DNA from: Bradyrhizobium sp. CIAT3101
Lineage (GTDB): Bacteria > Pseudomonadota > Alphaproteobacteria > Rhizobiales > Xanthobacteraceae
Length of the DNA stretch: 64,000 bases
Reading direction: 5' to 3'
Assembly: GCF_029714945.1 (NCBI RefSeq)
Contig: NZ_CP121634.1
Coordinates: 2,873,001-2,937,000, forward strand
In this document: piece by piece, positions 2 to 44,609 of the stretch
Position numbering within the stretch: position 1 is the first letter of the stretch
How the letters are laid out: each line of letters opens with the position of its first letter
The notes under the pieces: model-generated
The model's input: the letters and a program-made list of their open reading frames with translations, nothing else
What the model was told of the DNA's origin: nothing
Database searches by the model: none
Translations under genes and position numbers: made by a program

Positions 2-1501
2 TGGTGGCGGCGGCGGTGGAAGATCTCCAGCGCGGTCGACCCGATCGAGGCCAATGCGCTGCGCGGCGGCAATCTGTCGATGCGCGACAGCGTGGTGGTG
101 TCGAGCCAGACCTTGATCTCGAACGGCTGCGGTGCCTCGGTCGGACTCGAGGCCGGCTACACCCAGATCGGCTCGGGCATCGCCTCGCTGTTTGGCAAAT
201 TCTTTAATCTCCGGCGCAACGATTTGCGCCTGATCGTGGGCTGCGGCGCGGCGGCGGCGATCGCGGCGGCCTTCGGCGCGCCGATCACCGGCGCCTTCTA
301 CGCCTGCGAGCTGATCGTCGGCGTCTATTCGGTCGGCAGCGCGGCCCCCATCCTGGCAGCCTCGCTCGCCGGCGCGCTGACCGCGCAATGGCTCGGTGGC
401 GCGCCTTACTCCCTCGAAATCCCGAAGGTCAGCGCCGTCGGCGTCGAGCAATATCTGGCGCTGATCGGGCTTGCGCTCGTCACCAGCGGCGTCGGCATCG
501 CCGTGATGCGCTCGTCCTCGATGTTCGAACGGCTGTTCAAATGGCTGCCGGTCTGGCTGCGCCCGGTGATCGGCGGCCTCATCGTCGGCGGTTTCGCCAT
601 CGTCACGCCGCAGGTGCTGGCGGCGGGCCACGGCGCCATGGTGCTCGACCTCTTCCACGAGATGACGATCGGCCTGATCGCGATCATCATCGCGCTGAAG
701 GTGACGGCCTGCCTGATCTCGCTGGCATCAGGTTTCCGTGGCGGGCTCTTTTTCGCCTCGCTGTTCGTCGGCAGCCTGATCGGGAAGTTTTTCTCGGCGG
801 TGCTGCTGTTGATCAGTCCGAACTTCGTGATCAATCCGCTGGTGGCGATGCTGACCGGCATGGCGACGCTCGGCGTCGCCATCGTCGGCGGTCCCCTGAC
901 CATGTCGTTCCTCGTGCTCGAGATGACCCGCAATGTCGACGTCACCGCCGTGGTGCTGGCCGGTTGCATCGTCACCTCGATCTGCGTGCGCTTCATGTTC
1001 GGCCACTCGTTCTCGACCTGGCGCTTGCATCTGCGCGGCGAGACCATCCGCAGCGCCAACGACGTCGGCTGGCTGCGCAACCTCACCGTCGAGCGGCTGA
1101 TGCGCTCCGACGTCGGCAAGGTGCCGTCGAGCACCACGATCGCCGCGACGCGCCGGGAGTTCGCCTTGGGATCGCGGCCCGGCATCGTCATCGTCAACAA
1201 TGCTGACGAATATGTCGGCCTCGTGCTGCTGCCCGATTTGTTCTCCAGCGATCTCGACACCATCGCCGACGACATCCAGGTCATCGAGCTCGCGCGCCTG
1301 ACCGAGATCGTGCTGATCCCGGAGATGAACGTGAAGAGCGCGATGGCGGTGTTCGACGAGGCGGAAGCCGAAATGCTGGCGGTGGTCGATTCCACCGACA
1401 GCCGCAAGGTGGTCGGTTTCCTGACCGAGACCTTCGCCCGCCGCCGCTATGTCGAGGAGATCGACAAGGCCACGCGCGGCGTGCTGGGCGCGTTGTCATA
1501 A
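2..1501 (+). CDS. ClC-family chloride channel/transporter with C-terminal CBS pair (5' end cut by window)
   Basis: The reading frame is already open at base 2, so the true start lies upstream. ClC proteins are membrane Cl- channels or Cl-/H+ antiporters. The visible part has the GLEAGYTQIGSG segment, which corresponds to the GREGP selectivity motif and keeps the gating-type Glu. Further on, GFRGGLFFASLFVG matches the conserved GGxFxPxxxxG region. Many hydrophobic helices occupy the first two thirds. The last roughly 130 residues look like two CBS domains (VERLMRSDVGKVP; MNVKSAMAVFDEAEAE), which bind nucleotides in relatives. Transport mode (channel or antiporter) cannot be decided from this fragment. 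Confidence 0.9.
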   Translation, partial: WWRRRWKISSAVDPIEANALRGGNLSMRDSVVVSSQTLISNGCGASVGLEAGYTQIGSGIASLFGKFFNLRRNDLRLIVGCGAAAAIAAAFGAPITGAFYACELIVGVYSVGSAAPILAASLAGALTAQWLGGAPYSLEIPKVSAVGVEQYLALIGLALVTSGVGIAVMRSSSMFERLFKWLPVWLRPVIGGLIVGGFAIVTPQVLAAGHGAMVLDLFHEMTIGLIAIIIALKVTACLISLASGFRGGLFFASLFVGSLIGKFFSAVLLLISPNFVINPLVAMLTGMATLGVAIVGGPLTMSFLVLEMTRNVDVTAVVLAGCIVTSICVRFMFGHSFSTWRLHLRGETIRSANDVGWLRNLTVERLMRSDVGKVPSSTTIAATRREFALGSRPGIVIVNNADEYVGLVLLPDLFSSDLDTIADDIQVIELARLTEIVLIPEMNVKSAMAVFDEAEAEMLAVVDSTDSRKVVGFLTETFARRRYVEEIDKATRGVLGALS

Positions 1502-42283: not shown

Positions 42284-42559
42284 TCACGCTTTCTCGTGCT
42301 TGCGCAGGTCGCGGGCGTGATCGTGGCGGATGGCCTGGAGGTCGACATCTTCAGGCGGGATCTGGGGAAGGGCAGCCTCGGCCAGGATGGCCTCGGTGAC
42401 GTCCTCGACCGAATTCTCTGCGATTTCGTGGATGAACGAGATGTTCTGGTATTCGCCGGAAGTGACGCGGGAGATGACCTCGCGTCTTGTGATCTCGGGG
42501 TCGACGATCGCCTCGCGACCGCGCCGCCCGTAGTCGATCATCACGACGAAATACTGCAT
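42284..42559 (-). CDS. Small protein of unknown function under repressor control
   Basis: A 91-residue acidic protein (MQYFVVMIDYGRRGREAIVD at the N-terminus; HDHARDLRKHEKA at the end), without signal or membrane segment. GGAT lies before the start at 42559; a longer in-frame start at 42643 would cross the operators and is unlikely. The gene has a strong promoter whose spacer contains a repressor-type palindrome, and it lies immediately downstream of the repressor gene. No family is recognised. Confidence 0.65.
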   Translation of the reverse strand: MQYFVVMIDYGRRGREAIVDPEITRREVISRVTSGEYQNISFIHEIAENSVEDVTEAILAEAALPQIPPEDVDLQAIRHDHARDLRKHEKA

Positions 42560-42601
42560 GAAGCGATCCTGCCGCACCCCCAATCGTCGAGGGCGCGGCA
42601 G

Positions 42602-42655
42602 ATTATTTCCGAAAAACGGAATTAAGTCAAGGTCAATTTCCAAAAATCGGAAATT
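42602..42655 (-). promoter_or_regulatory. Promoter with two operators upstream of the 91-residue protein gene
   Basis: On the minus strand TTGACT (42630-42625) and AATAAT (42607-42602) are 17 bp apart, a good sigma-70 promoter. Operator A, TTCCG-AAAAA-CGGAA (42607-42621), fills the spacer. Operator B, AATTTCC-N7-GGAAATT (42635-42655), with perfect 7-bp arms, lies just upstream of -35. Both fit TTCC-N7-GGAA and their centres are 31 bp apart, about three helical turns. Confidence 0.7.
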
Positions 42656-42660
42656 CTCGC

Positions 42661-43269
42661 CTATCGCCCCTTCTTGCGGGGGCGGGCCGACTTCGCGCGC
42701 AGCCGTTCGAGCTGGCCCTTGGGCATCGAGAGGCAGATCTCTCCGACCCAGTCGAGCTTGACGCCGACGATCGGCTTGGCGTTGAAGCTGTTGAGATTGA
42801 CGACGGAGGGAGATTTCCCGCGTTCGATGGTCTTCAAATAGCGTTCACCGGTCTTGAGCCGGACCACGGCCTCTTCGCCGTAAAAGCTCGACAGTGGATG
42901 ACGCTGGTCCTTGTAGACCACGATCACGTCGCCGCTTTCGTATTTGGGCAGCATCGAATCTCCGACGATCTCGAAGGCCACGGTCTCTTCCATGATCGGG
43001 AACGGCAGCGCGATATCGCCGAGCCCCTCCGGCGGCACCTGCTCGACATCTGGCTCGATCACGGCGCCGGCACCGACGCGCCCCATGATCGGCGCGAGAT
43101 TGAGCTCAAGATATTCCATGATCGGAATGATTTCAGAGGCCTTCACCAGGCGTTCGCCACCGAGGATCTCCGACACCGCGCCCGGGCGAACGCCCATTGC
43201 CGCGGCCAGCCCGCCCTTGCTCTTGCCCGTCTTCTCCAGGCCCCGCTCGATCATCGCAACGTCCAACAT
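42661..43269 (-). CDS. LexA/CI-like repressor: XRE helix-turn-helix plus S24 self-cleaving domain
   Basis: A 202-residue protein. Residues about 5-60 form an XRE-type helix-turn-helix (LAAAMGVRPGAVSEILGGERL). Residues about 95-190 form an S24 peptidase-like domain with Ser105 (VGDSML) and Lys146 (RYLKTIE) at the catalytic dyad positions. The linker has GRVGAGAV, in which Ala67-Gly68 matches the LexA cleavage bond context (GRVAAGEP). Self-cleavage on RecA activation is therefore plausible. GAGGGA precedes the ATG at 43269. Palindromes of one type lie on both sides of the gene, so it probably represses itself and both neighbours. Confidence 0.88.
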   Translation of the reverse strand: MLDVAMIERGLEKTGKSKGGLAAAMGVRPGAVSEILGGERLVKASEIIPIMEYLELNLAPIMGRVGAGAVIEPDVEQVPPEGLGDIALPFPIMEETVAFEIVGDSMLPKYESGDVIVVYKDQRHPLSSFYGEEAVVRLKTGERYLKTIERGKSPSVVNLNSFNAKPIVGVKLDWVGEICLSMPKGQLERLRAKSARPRKKGR

Positions 43270-43307
43270 GGTGATTCCCTCGATTGCCGATTGGCTCCGC
43301 CTCTTGT

Positions 43308-43380
43308 AATCCGAAATTCGGAATTGATGCAATTATGAATATCAGAATTCGCGCTTGACTTTGTCTTCGGAATAACGGAA
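43308..43380. promoter_or_regulatory. Divergent operator/promoter region between repressor and GcrA-like genes
   Basis: Operator C is AATCC-N7-GGAATT (43308-43325); it lies between TTGCAT and TTACAA, a plausible minus-strand promoter for the repressor with a 17-bp spacer. Operator D is TTCG-N7-GGAA (43366-43380), just downstream of TTGACT (43355-43360) in the plus-strand promoter of the GcrA-like gene. Each differs by one base from TTCC-N7-GGAA. Confidence 0.55.
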
Positions 43381-43432
43381 TGTGCGTTCCGCCTCAGGAT
43401 CGTGCGATCGGGGCGCATCACAGGACAGCAGC

Positions 43433-43966
43433 ATGGAACCGGGCCACTGGTCGTCGGAGCATTCCGACGCGCTTCGCGACTATTTTTTCAAGGGACTGTC
43501 ATATGCGGAGATCGGAAGGGAGATTAACGCAAGGTTTGGAACAGTTTACACGCGCAATGCGGTGATCGGTCGTGCCAAGCGGCTTGGGCTCGCCGAGCCC
43601 GAACGGATGACGAGTCCATCGATCGTACCGTCCTTGCCGGGCGAGCCCGGTCCGCTCTCGCCGCCTCGTGTTGCAATACCCGGCCTGAACCTGCCGCCGC
43701 CTTCAGCATTAAGACCGGCCAATCCGGTCAAACTGCGCTGCGTCGGTGTCCAGCCGCGACTGATCACGCTGCTCGAGCTCGAGCGAGGCGATTGCCGCTA
43801 TCCCTATGGTGGTGACGGGGAGGGAGAGGAGATCAGCTTCTGCGGTCACCCGCGTCAGCCTGGTTCGAGCTATTGCGCGCCGCATGCGCACCTGACCCGC
43901 GGTCCCGGAGCAGTGTCCGGCCGTACCGCCGGTGCCGTCGTGCTGAGGCTGGTCTCCACCGCCTGA
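43433..43966 (+). CDS. GcrA-family cell-cycle regulator paralogue
   Basis: A 177-residue protein. The N-terminus has the GcrA DNA-binding pattern: HWSSEHSDALRDYFFKGLSY, then TRNAVIGRAKRLGL. The middle is Pro-rich. The C-terminus has the conserved Cys/His module DCRYPYG...FCGHP...YCAPHAHL that contacts sigma-70 region 2 in GcrA. The start at 43433 follows AGGA. GcrA activates methylation-sensitive cell-cycle genes in Caulobacter. This copy is probably an accessory paralogue because its promoter is tied to a phage-like repressor. Confidence 0.87.
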   Translation: MEPGHWSSEHSDALRDYFFKGLSYAEIGREINARFGTVYTRNAVIGRAKRLGLAEPERMTSPSIVPSLPGEPGPLSPPRVAIPGLNLPPPSALRPANPVKLRCVGVQPRLITLLELERGDCRYPYGGDGEGEEISFCGHPRQPGSSYCAPHAHLTRGPGAVSGRTAGAVVLRLVSTA

Positions 43967-44015
43967 CCGGCGCGGCCAGCATTCCTTCTGATCTTAATTC
44001 GCAAGGAGTCTCCGA

Positions 44016-44579
44016 GTGGCACGTGCCAGACGCAACATGTCCTACAAATTGACCGGGCTCCACGACCGCCGGTCGCGCGACCTGCCGTTCAATGCAGAAT
44101 TGGCGGAGGTCAAGGTCGACAATCCCCTGGCGCTCGATCAGGACGACAAGATCGTGGCGGTCCGGTCGATCCGCAACGATCCGCTCGGCCGGCTGCACTC
44201 GCATCACCAGATCGACGAGGCGCAATATCGGGGTGGCCGCGCCTACCAGAGCGACTGGGAGAGGGCGGAGCGGGGCCCTCAGGCCATGGATCCGACCCGC
44301 GAACATGTCGACGGCACGCGCTCCCGCGAGCCCATCACCGAGAGCCAGCGTCAAGCCGTATTGCGGCTGAACCGGGTCGAGCGCGAGCTCGGCACCGACG
44401 GCGCCGCGCTGGTGCATGACGTGCTGGTGCTTGGTTTGACGATGGATCAGATCGGACAGCGACGCGCCGTCCGCACCCAGCGCTGGAACGACTATTTTGC
44501 ACGGCGTTTTCGCGAATGTCTCGACCGGCTGGCGCTGATCTACGGCTTTGCCACCAACGCATCGGCGCGGCGCCGCTGA
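44016..44579 (+). CDS. DUF6456-like protein
   Basis: A 187-residue basic protein with a GTG start after AAGGAG. RNDPLGRLHSHHQIDEAQYRGG with AYQSDWE resembles the core of DUF6456 (xDxxGxPLI...QxxAGxxLRxDF). ITESQRQAVLRLNRVERELG and RFRECLDRLALIYGF resemble its C-terminal helices. DUF6456 includes GafY, an activator of gene transfer agents in Caulobacter; similar proteins occur in prophages. The match is partial and made by eye. It lies 49 bp after the GcrA-like gene, likely co-transcribed, and ends at a strong terminator. Confidence 0.65.
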   Translation: MARARRNMSYKLTGLHDRRSRDLPFNAELAEVKVDNPLALDQDDKIVAVRSIRNDPLGRLHSHHQIDEAQYRGGRAYQSDWERAERGPQAMDPTREHVDGTRSREPITESQRQAVLRLNRVERELGTDGAALVHDVLVLGLTMDQIGQRRAVRTQRWNDYFARRFRECLDRLALIYGFATNASARRR

Positions 44580-44585
44580 AGTGGC

Positions 44586-44609
44586 CGCCGGCGGCTTGCG
44601 CCGCCGGCG
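44586..44609. terminator. Strong GC-rich terminator hairpin
   Basis: CGCCGGCGGC (44586-44595) pairs perfectly with GCCGCCGGCG (44600-44609) around a TTGC loop, followed by TTCTTCCGTCTC. It starts 7 bp after the DUF6456-like stop codon and could also serve the converging gene. Confidence 0.8.

Follow-up and report, generated by a model that had tools for sequence, protein, structure and literature searches.

A conserved, probably phage-derived regulatory switch with a LexA-type repressor and a GcrA paralogue in Bradyrhizobium

The module and its putative operators

The stretch of DNA analysed here (the window) comprises 64,000 nucleotides of the 9.37 Mb, single-contig genome of Bradyrhizobium sp. 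CIAT3101 and contains a four-gene module in which a repressor gene, rep, lies between a leftward gene, s91, and a rightward pair encoding a GcrA paralogue and a protein of 187 residues, p187. From left to right, s91 (42284..42559, minus strand), the first gene of the left arm, encodes a 91-residue protein that belongs to no Pfam family and has relatives in temperate phages; rep (42661..43269, minus strand) encodes a CI/LexA-type repressor of 202 residues with a helix–turn–helix (HTH) and an S24 peptidase domain; and the genes for the GcrA paralogue (177 residues; 43433..43966) and p187 (44016..44579) follow on the plus strand. A GC-rich hairpin 3' of p187 (44586..44609, plus strand; -26.7 kcal/mol) had been annotated as a terminator; the hairpin is strong, but its T tail is poor and it was not picked up in a consensus terminator scan; it is described here as a possible terminator. 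No description of the module appears in titles or abstracts of the open-licence literature among the matches listed. A reading of the module as a defence system was dropped, none of the four proteins having matched a PADLOC family.

Comparisons were made with 80 loci kept from 114 relatives, 79 of them titled Bradyrhizobium and one (L064, JAUEPE010000040.1) titled Frankia sp. RB7. The latter carries the module at 93–98% protein identity and is therefore probably mislabelled Bradyrhizobium DNA. The four-gene order is retained at 79 of the 80 loci, the contig of the other (L079) ending first.

The S24 domain of Rep scores 42 bits against PF00717 (cut-off 23.3), and the Ala67-Gly68 bond, Ser105 and Lys146 are as described in the initial annotation of this DNA and are present at 79 of the 80 loci, the start in L013 being unmatched. 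We consider RecA-type cleavage of Rep somewhat more probable than its absence. The N-terminal HTH matches PF13560 with an E of 5.9e-5 and 23.7 bits, below the cut-off of 27, and the protein matches PHROG repressor family 4 (E 3.5e-12). The repressor of Bradyrhizobium sp. CCGUVB4N 1 is 100% identical to Rep; no sequence relative was found in the PDB at E 0.001.

Four palindromes, A to D, had been reported around rep under the pattern TTCC-N7-GGAA. All four exist, but the pattern is too loose, and a fifth site, E, had been missed. The short pattern occurs three times in the window against 0.85 expected, a count reached in 5 of 100 shuffles, and its third match (42988-43002) falls within the rep coding sequence; the genome scan suggested at the outset returned 159 sites, where the reversed pattern, used as a control, gave 76. 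The short pattern is thus weak evidence, whereas a longer form, TTCCG-N5-CGGAA, holds up. Four sites match the latter at 9 or more of 10 positions, and all lie in the two intergenic gaps; none of 5000 dinucleotide shuffles reaches four, and the Poisson P for the cluster, with the background taken from the 80 loci, is 2.7e-7. We conclude that the longer form is not due to chance.

In total, there are five operator-like sites, all putative and read from the sequence. Two are in the left arm, A (42607..42621; 10/10 consensus positions) and B (42638..42652; 9/10), 31 bases apart, and three in the right: C (43309..43323), nearest the rep start, E (43333..43347), in the middle, and D (43366..43380), over the promoter of the gcrA-like gene. 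In having two sites to the left and three to the right, the module matches the OL and OR arrangement of lambda-type phages. Alignment of the right gap from 78 relatives and the window (L013 and L079 were left out) reveals three conserved blocks, D, E and C, with spacings of 33 and 24 bases. Site E is weaker; all 79 aligned sequences have it when the half-site is relaxed to TTC[C/T]G, a form that was picked after E had been seen. Between the blocks the gap is less conserved, except for AGTCAAG, the complement of a TTGACT hexamer that is the probable -35 of the gcrA-like gene (43355..43360, plus strand). This promoter has no clear -10 and is absent from the promoter scan output. The three right-arm sites are retained in the three deepest genomes examined (L098, L099 and L106), whose Rep proteins are 76–81% identical to that of the window.

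The s91 promoter (42602..42630, minus strand; TTGACT-N17-AATAAT) is the sole promoter-like match of the region (one match; 0.4 expected in shuffles), and operator A fills its spacer. A TTGAC-type hexamer followed after 16–18 bases by a -10-like hexamer is found in 72 of 79 sequences. The left sites shift and vary more: at a score of at least 8, 22 of 65 sequences have one, 42 have two and one has three, the count covering 64 of the 80 loci and the window (15 lack the expected start and L079 is cut). Putative operators of one motif flank rep on both sides and are conserved beside rep, s91 and the gene for the GcrA paralogue; this much of the initial annotation, with the conserved gene order, is borne out.

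Conservation, selection and expression

In a genus-wide search, a p187 match was obtained in 141 of 146 genomes of the genus (133 of 137 good ones), a count of sequence matches irrespective of gene order. Most are full length, the exceptions being G105, where the match is in two frames, G277, at 49% identity, and G299 and G361, where it is partial. A survey of 149 genomes of the family gave 12 matches, seven in the genus and five outside it, the latter at 31–48% identity.

All four genes are under purifying selection. In comparisons of the relatives with the window (79–80 per gene), the median ratio of non-synonymous to synonymous substitution rates (dN/dS) is 0.031 for rep, 0.114 for s91, 0.151 for p187 and 0.249 for the gcrA-like gene, which is fast evolving; a neighbouring oxidoreductase gene, taken for comparison, gives 0.035. 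The constraint on Rep is much the strongest of the four, as would be expected if the module were a relic of immunity, in which Rep alone mattered, protecting the cell from superinfection by phages with the same operators, and the other genes were passengers. This explanation sits poorly with the purifying selection on s91, gcrA and p187 and with the near-ubiquity of p187 in the genus.

Published expression data bear on the regulation of the module. Among 37 genes raised in an RNA-seq comparison of a Bradyrhizobium diazoefficiens nasT mutant under denitrification are four with consecutive numbers, bll6133 (+2.13), bll6134 (+3.33), blr6135 (+3.24) and blr6136 (+2.96); blr6135 is annotated as 'putative repressor LexA', and the flanking tags are not among the raised genes in the available part of that paper (PMC6759348). 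Bll6133 is the name of P0105, a p187 relative at 86% identity, and the other three were matched to module genes by number, strand and annotation. If an autoregulated repressor were lost, a joint rise of this kind, in its own transcript too, would be expected. The conservation of the sites and the joint change of the four transcripts together make it likely that Rep controls all four genes, by binding that we infer from the sites.

Protein families and phage relatives

The gcrA-like gene had been correctly identified. Its product matches PF07750 over the full length with 148.2 bits (cut-off 26.9), as would a counterpart of GcrA, the sigma70 cofactor of Caulobacter. It differs from the latter in scoring 50 bits against the orthologue model NF050816, whose equivalog cut-off is 280, in being one of three PF07750 copies in the genome, of which the two others score better, and in its rapid evolution. 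By these scores, the protein is a clear member of the GcrA family and not the GcrA orthologue.

The proposal that p187 resembles DUF6456 stands as one of remote homology. The protein scores 18.6 bits against PF20057, below the cut-off of 26.3, and profile–profile comparison gives an E of 2e-8; together, these values place p187 as a homologue of DUF6456 outside the curated family. Among its viral relatives, that at locus L126 reaches 27.0 bits, above the cut-off, and those at L166 and L168 fall below it. DUF6456 has no sequence relative in the PDB at E 0.1; the C-terminal part of a DUF6456 model matched sigma region 4. In p187, the C-terminal HTH is sigma-region-4-like, and the protein is a candidate late-type activator or antiterminator.

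The DUF6456 protein had at first been equated with GafY of the Caulobacter gene transfer agent system, and this looks wrong. In GafA of the Hyphomicrobiales, the homology is in the C-terminal part, the gene being mostly preceded by a DnaA-like gene (PMC9638019), and GafY resembles the N-terminal and GafZ, an antiterminator, the C-terminal part of GafA (PMC11150451). As far as the available text of these two papers goes, DUF6456 most likely corresponds to the GafZ, or antitermination, half. The canonical DUF6456 gene occurs in 64 of 81 genomes of the order, and is absent from both members of the genus among those 81. Of 16 chromosomal DUF6456 loci fetched, from the best-scoring of the 64 genomes, 14 were used (L113 and L117 were not), and 12 of these have a DnaA-like partner. 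The possibility that p187 is itself the gafA orthologue was rejected: G022 has both a canonical DUF6456 gene and, on a separate contig, a p187 relative.

Relatives of s91 and p187 are carried by temperate phages of the genus. The prophage ppBeUSDA76-2 (OP596614) encodes an s91 relative at 61.7% identity, as does OP596615 at 45.1%, both over 50–60% of the query, and, shortly upstream of its terminase gene, a p187 relative at 48.5%. Unlike the module, it is a full prophage of 41.8 kb, and searches with Rep and with the GcrA paralogue found no relative in it. Spontaneous phage production by the strain that hosts it, USDA 76, is described in the accessible part of the report (PMC10127595).

A collection of viral sequences yielded 105 p187 relatives, of which 80 were kept and 78 had neighbourhoods that could be analysed (L173 and L175 are cut by the contig start). 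TerL lies no more than 6 kb downstream of the p187 relative at 43 of the 66 loci with at least 3.5 kb of downstream sequence. Upstream, among 51 loci with at least 4.5 kb, a DnaA-like protein is encoded at 29, a GcrA-like protein at 12 (both at 3) and neither at 13. A representative DnaA-like protein matches the DnaA domain IV (PF08299, E 7e-25); across all 78 loci (within L126-L205), such a protein precedes the DUF6456-type protein at 35. These proteins belong to the same family as the product of the gene preceding chromosomal gafA-type genes, a clue to where the control of gene transfer agents may have come from. Mutual exclusivity of the two partners (26 DnaA-like only, 9 GcrA-like only, 3 both and 13 neither; P 0.013) was not relied on, the P being inflated by related phages and one overlap consisting of a 63-residue open reading frame. 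Many phages thus put a GcrA- or DnaA-like protein and a p187 relative on the right arm, the latter in the slot that the late regulator Q would take; the position between early genes and terminase is that of the viral relatives and not of p187 itself.

Two viral loci approach the order of the module. L166 has an S24 repressor (minus strand) followed by GcrA-like, p187, TerS and TerL genes (GcrA-like and p187 on the plus strand), and L168 has s91 (minus strand, 45%), GcrA-like and p187 (both plus strand), TerS and TerL, with no S24 protein detected. The idea that L166 preserves the complete order was set aside, its s91 being weak (23% identity) and lost in a second profile run; for s91, L168 is the better example. 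Neither locus is among the viral relatives of Rep. A scan of the viral collection returned no relative of the GcrA paralogue, and the phage records gave five, at 26–30% identity; the best Rep match in the phage records is at 48%.

The closest Rep in the viral collection, at 78%, is on L206, where s91 (79%) and a gcrA-like gene (50%) accompany it near an ABC-transporter gene, from which we judge that this contig is probably chromosomal; no other Rep relative in the collection exceeds 48% identity. L206 also has an unverified open reading frame of 82 residues (1789-2037) at the position of cro, with the right operators on one side and the gcrA-like gene on the other; it matched no Pfam or PHROG family. 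For superinfection immunity, the existence of temperate phages that infect Bradyrhizobium and carry s91 and p187 relatives is a point in favour; the lack of any close viral Rep other than the apparently chromosomal L206 is a point against, and taken with the selection data it leaves the immunity relic an unlikely explanation.

A probable domesticated switch and its candidate targets

We conclude that the module is a real, conserved, phage-derived regulatory switch, and consider the operator layout and the phage origin, taken together, very probable. Lambda-type switches consist of OL, CI and OR with N and Q. The module resembles them in having a repressor amid divergent arms, two sites on the left and three on the right, an operator inside a -35/-10 spacer and a late-type regulator ending the right arm; it differs in that cro is missing from the window and that genes for replication, packaging, lysis or integration do not adjoin it. 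Its likeness to RogA-GafYZ of Caulobacter and GafA of Rhodobacter lies in a repressor set over a two-protein activator, in the DUF6456-type protein and in the phage relatives of both halves. It departs from these in having a GcrA paralogue and no adjacent DnaA-like partner, in the sub-threshold DUF6456 score and in the absence from the genome of the RcGTA markers searched.

The explanation that we favour, with a probability of about 0.68, is that the module is a domesticated phage switch, a temperate-phage control region in which GcrA stands where GafYZ has a DnaA-like partner. Domestication of the region would have taken place early in Bradyrhizobium, leaving only a switch, in which Rep binds A and B on the left and C, E and D on the right, silencing s91, the gcrA-p187 operon and itself. 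RecA-type self-cleavage at Ala67-Gly68, or another signal, would lower Rep and raise all four genes. The GcrA paralogue may then bring sigma70 RNA polymerase to target promoters or stimulate it there, and p187 may act at the same promoters, either as an activator of late type or as a processive antiterminator; the two would represent a GcrA version of the DnaA-like and DUF6456 pair of GafYZ/GafA, and the operon or genes on which they act would be located elsewhere. That nearly all Bradyrhizobium examined keep the switch with no virus around it suggests that it probably now switches host genes. Action of p187 as activator or antiterminator together with the GcrA paralogue is the part on which we put even odds.

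Several observations weigh against this explanation. The module in the window lacks cro, the gene opposite rep being gcrA-like; close relatives of the four genes were not found together in any one phage; GcrA-like proteins are the minority partner in phages (12/51 against 29/51 for DnaA-like); the divergent module copy on L206 (s91, rep and gcrA-like) gave no p187 match, and nor did 5 of the 146 genus genomes. A structural match to Q21 is modest (root-mean-square deviation 5.8, for a helical protein), Q21 is absent among the 50 matches listed for the DUF6456 model, and Foldseek returned no solved-structure match at E 0.001; GafZ itself, in the available text of PMC11150451, has no structural similarity to known antiterminators. 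The nasT table, as available, names no recA or other SOS gene (PMC6759348), from which it follows that the trigger may not be DNA damage. Finally, no target operon is known for the pair.

The search for targets gave candidates that were set aside. Allowing one mismatch, TTCCGWWWWWCGGAA occurs at eight places in the whole genome (three for the reversed control), four of them A to D; the flanks of the remaining four resemble one another by eye, in three cases closely and in one less so, and on this visual comparison the four were taken as dispersed repeats and not as a regulon. DNA with TACCGAAATTCGGAA or TGCCGAAATTCGGAA and look-alike flanks recurs at several places of the genome (L086, L087, L088 and L092, around 1500), and its half-site resembles the operators.

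The initial annotation had pointed to a gene transfer agent. One of RcGTA type is an unlikely target and was rejected for this genome, in which neither GTA_TIM nor the HK97 capsid PF05065 nor, at E 0.001, PF20057 was found. Control of a gene transfer agent of another type draws some support from the DUF6456 kinship of p187 and from the parallel between the arrangement here and RogA-GafYZ (PMC11150451), as well as from B. japonicum S06B, whose phage reads cover the genome evenly, in a manner that its authors, in the part of the paper available, found reminiscent of gene transfer agents (PMC10127595). The missing GTA_TIM and capsid, the fact that no conserved particle cluster was seen and the matching of GTA_TIM in just 5 of 80 genus genomes (four over the cut-off, one strongly) nevertheless make it an improbable alternative, slightly more so than the immunity relic. 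The strong match is in G301, a genome 80% complete, which has a full GTA_TIM (E 4e-140), the other four matches being weak; it represents either contamination or a rare gene transfer agent.

The earlier statement that no phage structural genes are nearby has to be qualified: a strain-specific prophage remnant starts 26 kb to the right of the module, beyond the window (L124 7127-13444; genome C1 about 2943627-2949944). It contains an N-terminal TerL fragment (PF04466; 72–73% to ppBeUSDA76-2), a tail collar protein (PF07484; 52%), a possible small terminase (PHROG E 0.003) and an FkbM-type methyltransferase below the threshold, along with two genes that are endolysin-like and holin-like by eye alone, matching no lysis family. 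In the same locus (L124 3911-6733), a gene of the Imm11 immunity family (E 1.5e-54) is followed by that for a 574-residue protein containing an AHH-nuclease domain (E 3.5e-7); the two may form a toxin–immunity arrangement. The remnant was rejected as a target: relatives of the endolysin-like gene at more than 80% identity occur in just 4 of 41 module-bearing genomes (some match, mostly at 41–45%, in 27), as for an accessory element and not a conserved partner.

This bears in turn on a cell-death switch like AlpR-AlpA of Pseudomonas aeruginosa, in which cleavage of Rep on damage would free p187 to turn on lysis genes. The two systems share a self-cleaving-type repressor over an antiterminator-like protein, but the module has no linked lysis operon and no lysis gene within it or among its direct neighbours; that the two lysis-like genes of the remnant match no lysis family lowered our already small estimate a little further, and we regard this as the least probable of the alternatives. 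Overall, the initial observation is confirmed, in a stronger form than first put forward, and its interpretation partly supported.

More tentatively, and with the odds somewhat against it, the whole phage decision circuit, with its OL/OR repressor, sigma70 cofactor GcrA and DUF6456 antiterminator, may have been captured as a core regulator of the genus that drives an undiscovered host programme. If so, candidates for that programme would include a gene transfer agent of a new kind, controlled lysis and a stress regulon, and GafYZ/GafA would be another captured late-activator pair, with a DnaA-like protein replacing GcrA. The favoured reading of the module as a domesticated switch would provide a case in which a viral decision circuit has become a core regulator, and one easily approached by experiment, since a single deletion, that of the repressor gene, would be needed in a soybean symbiont that grows in culture. 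It would also link GafA and GafYZ, which act as master activators for gene transfer agents, to a phage family with GcrA- or DnaA-like proteins upstream of a DUF6456-type protein, so that ideas on how GafYZ arose and works could be tested away from gene transfer agents.

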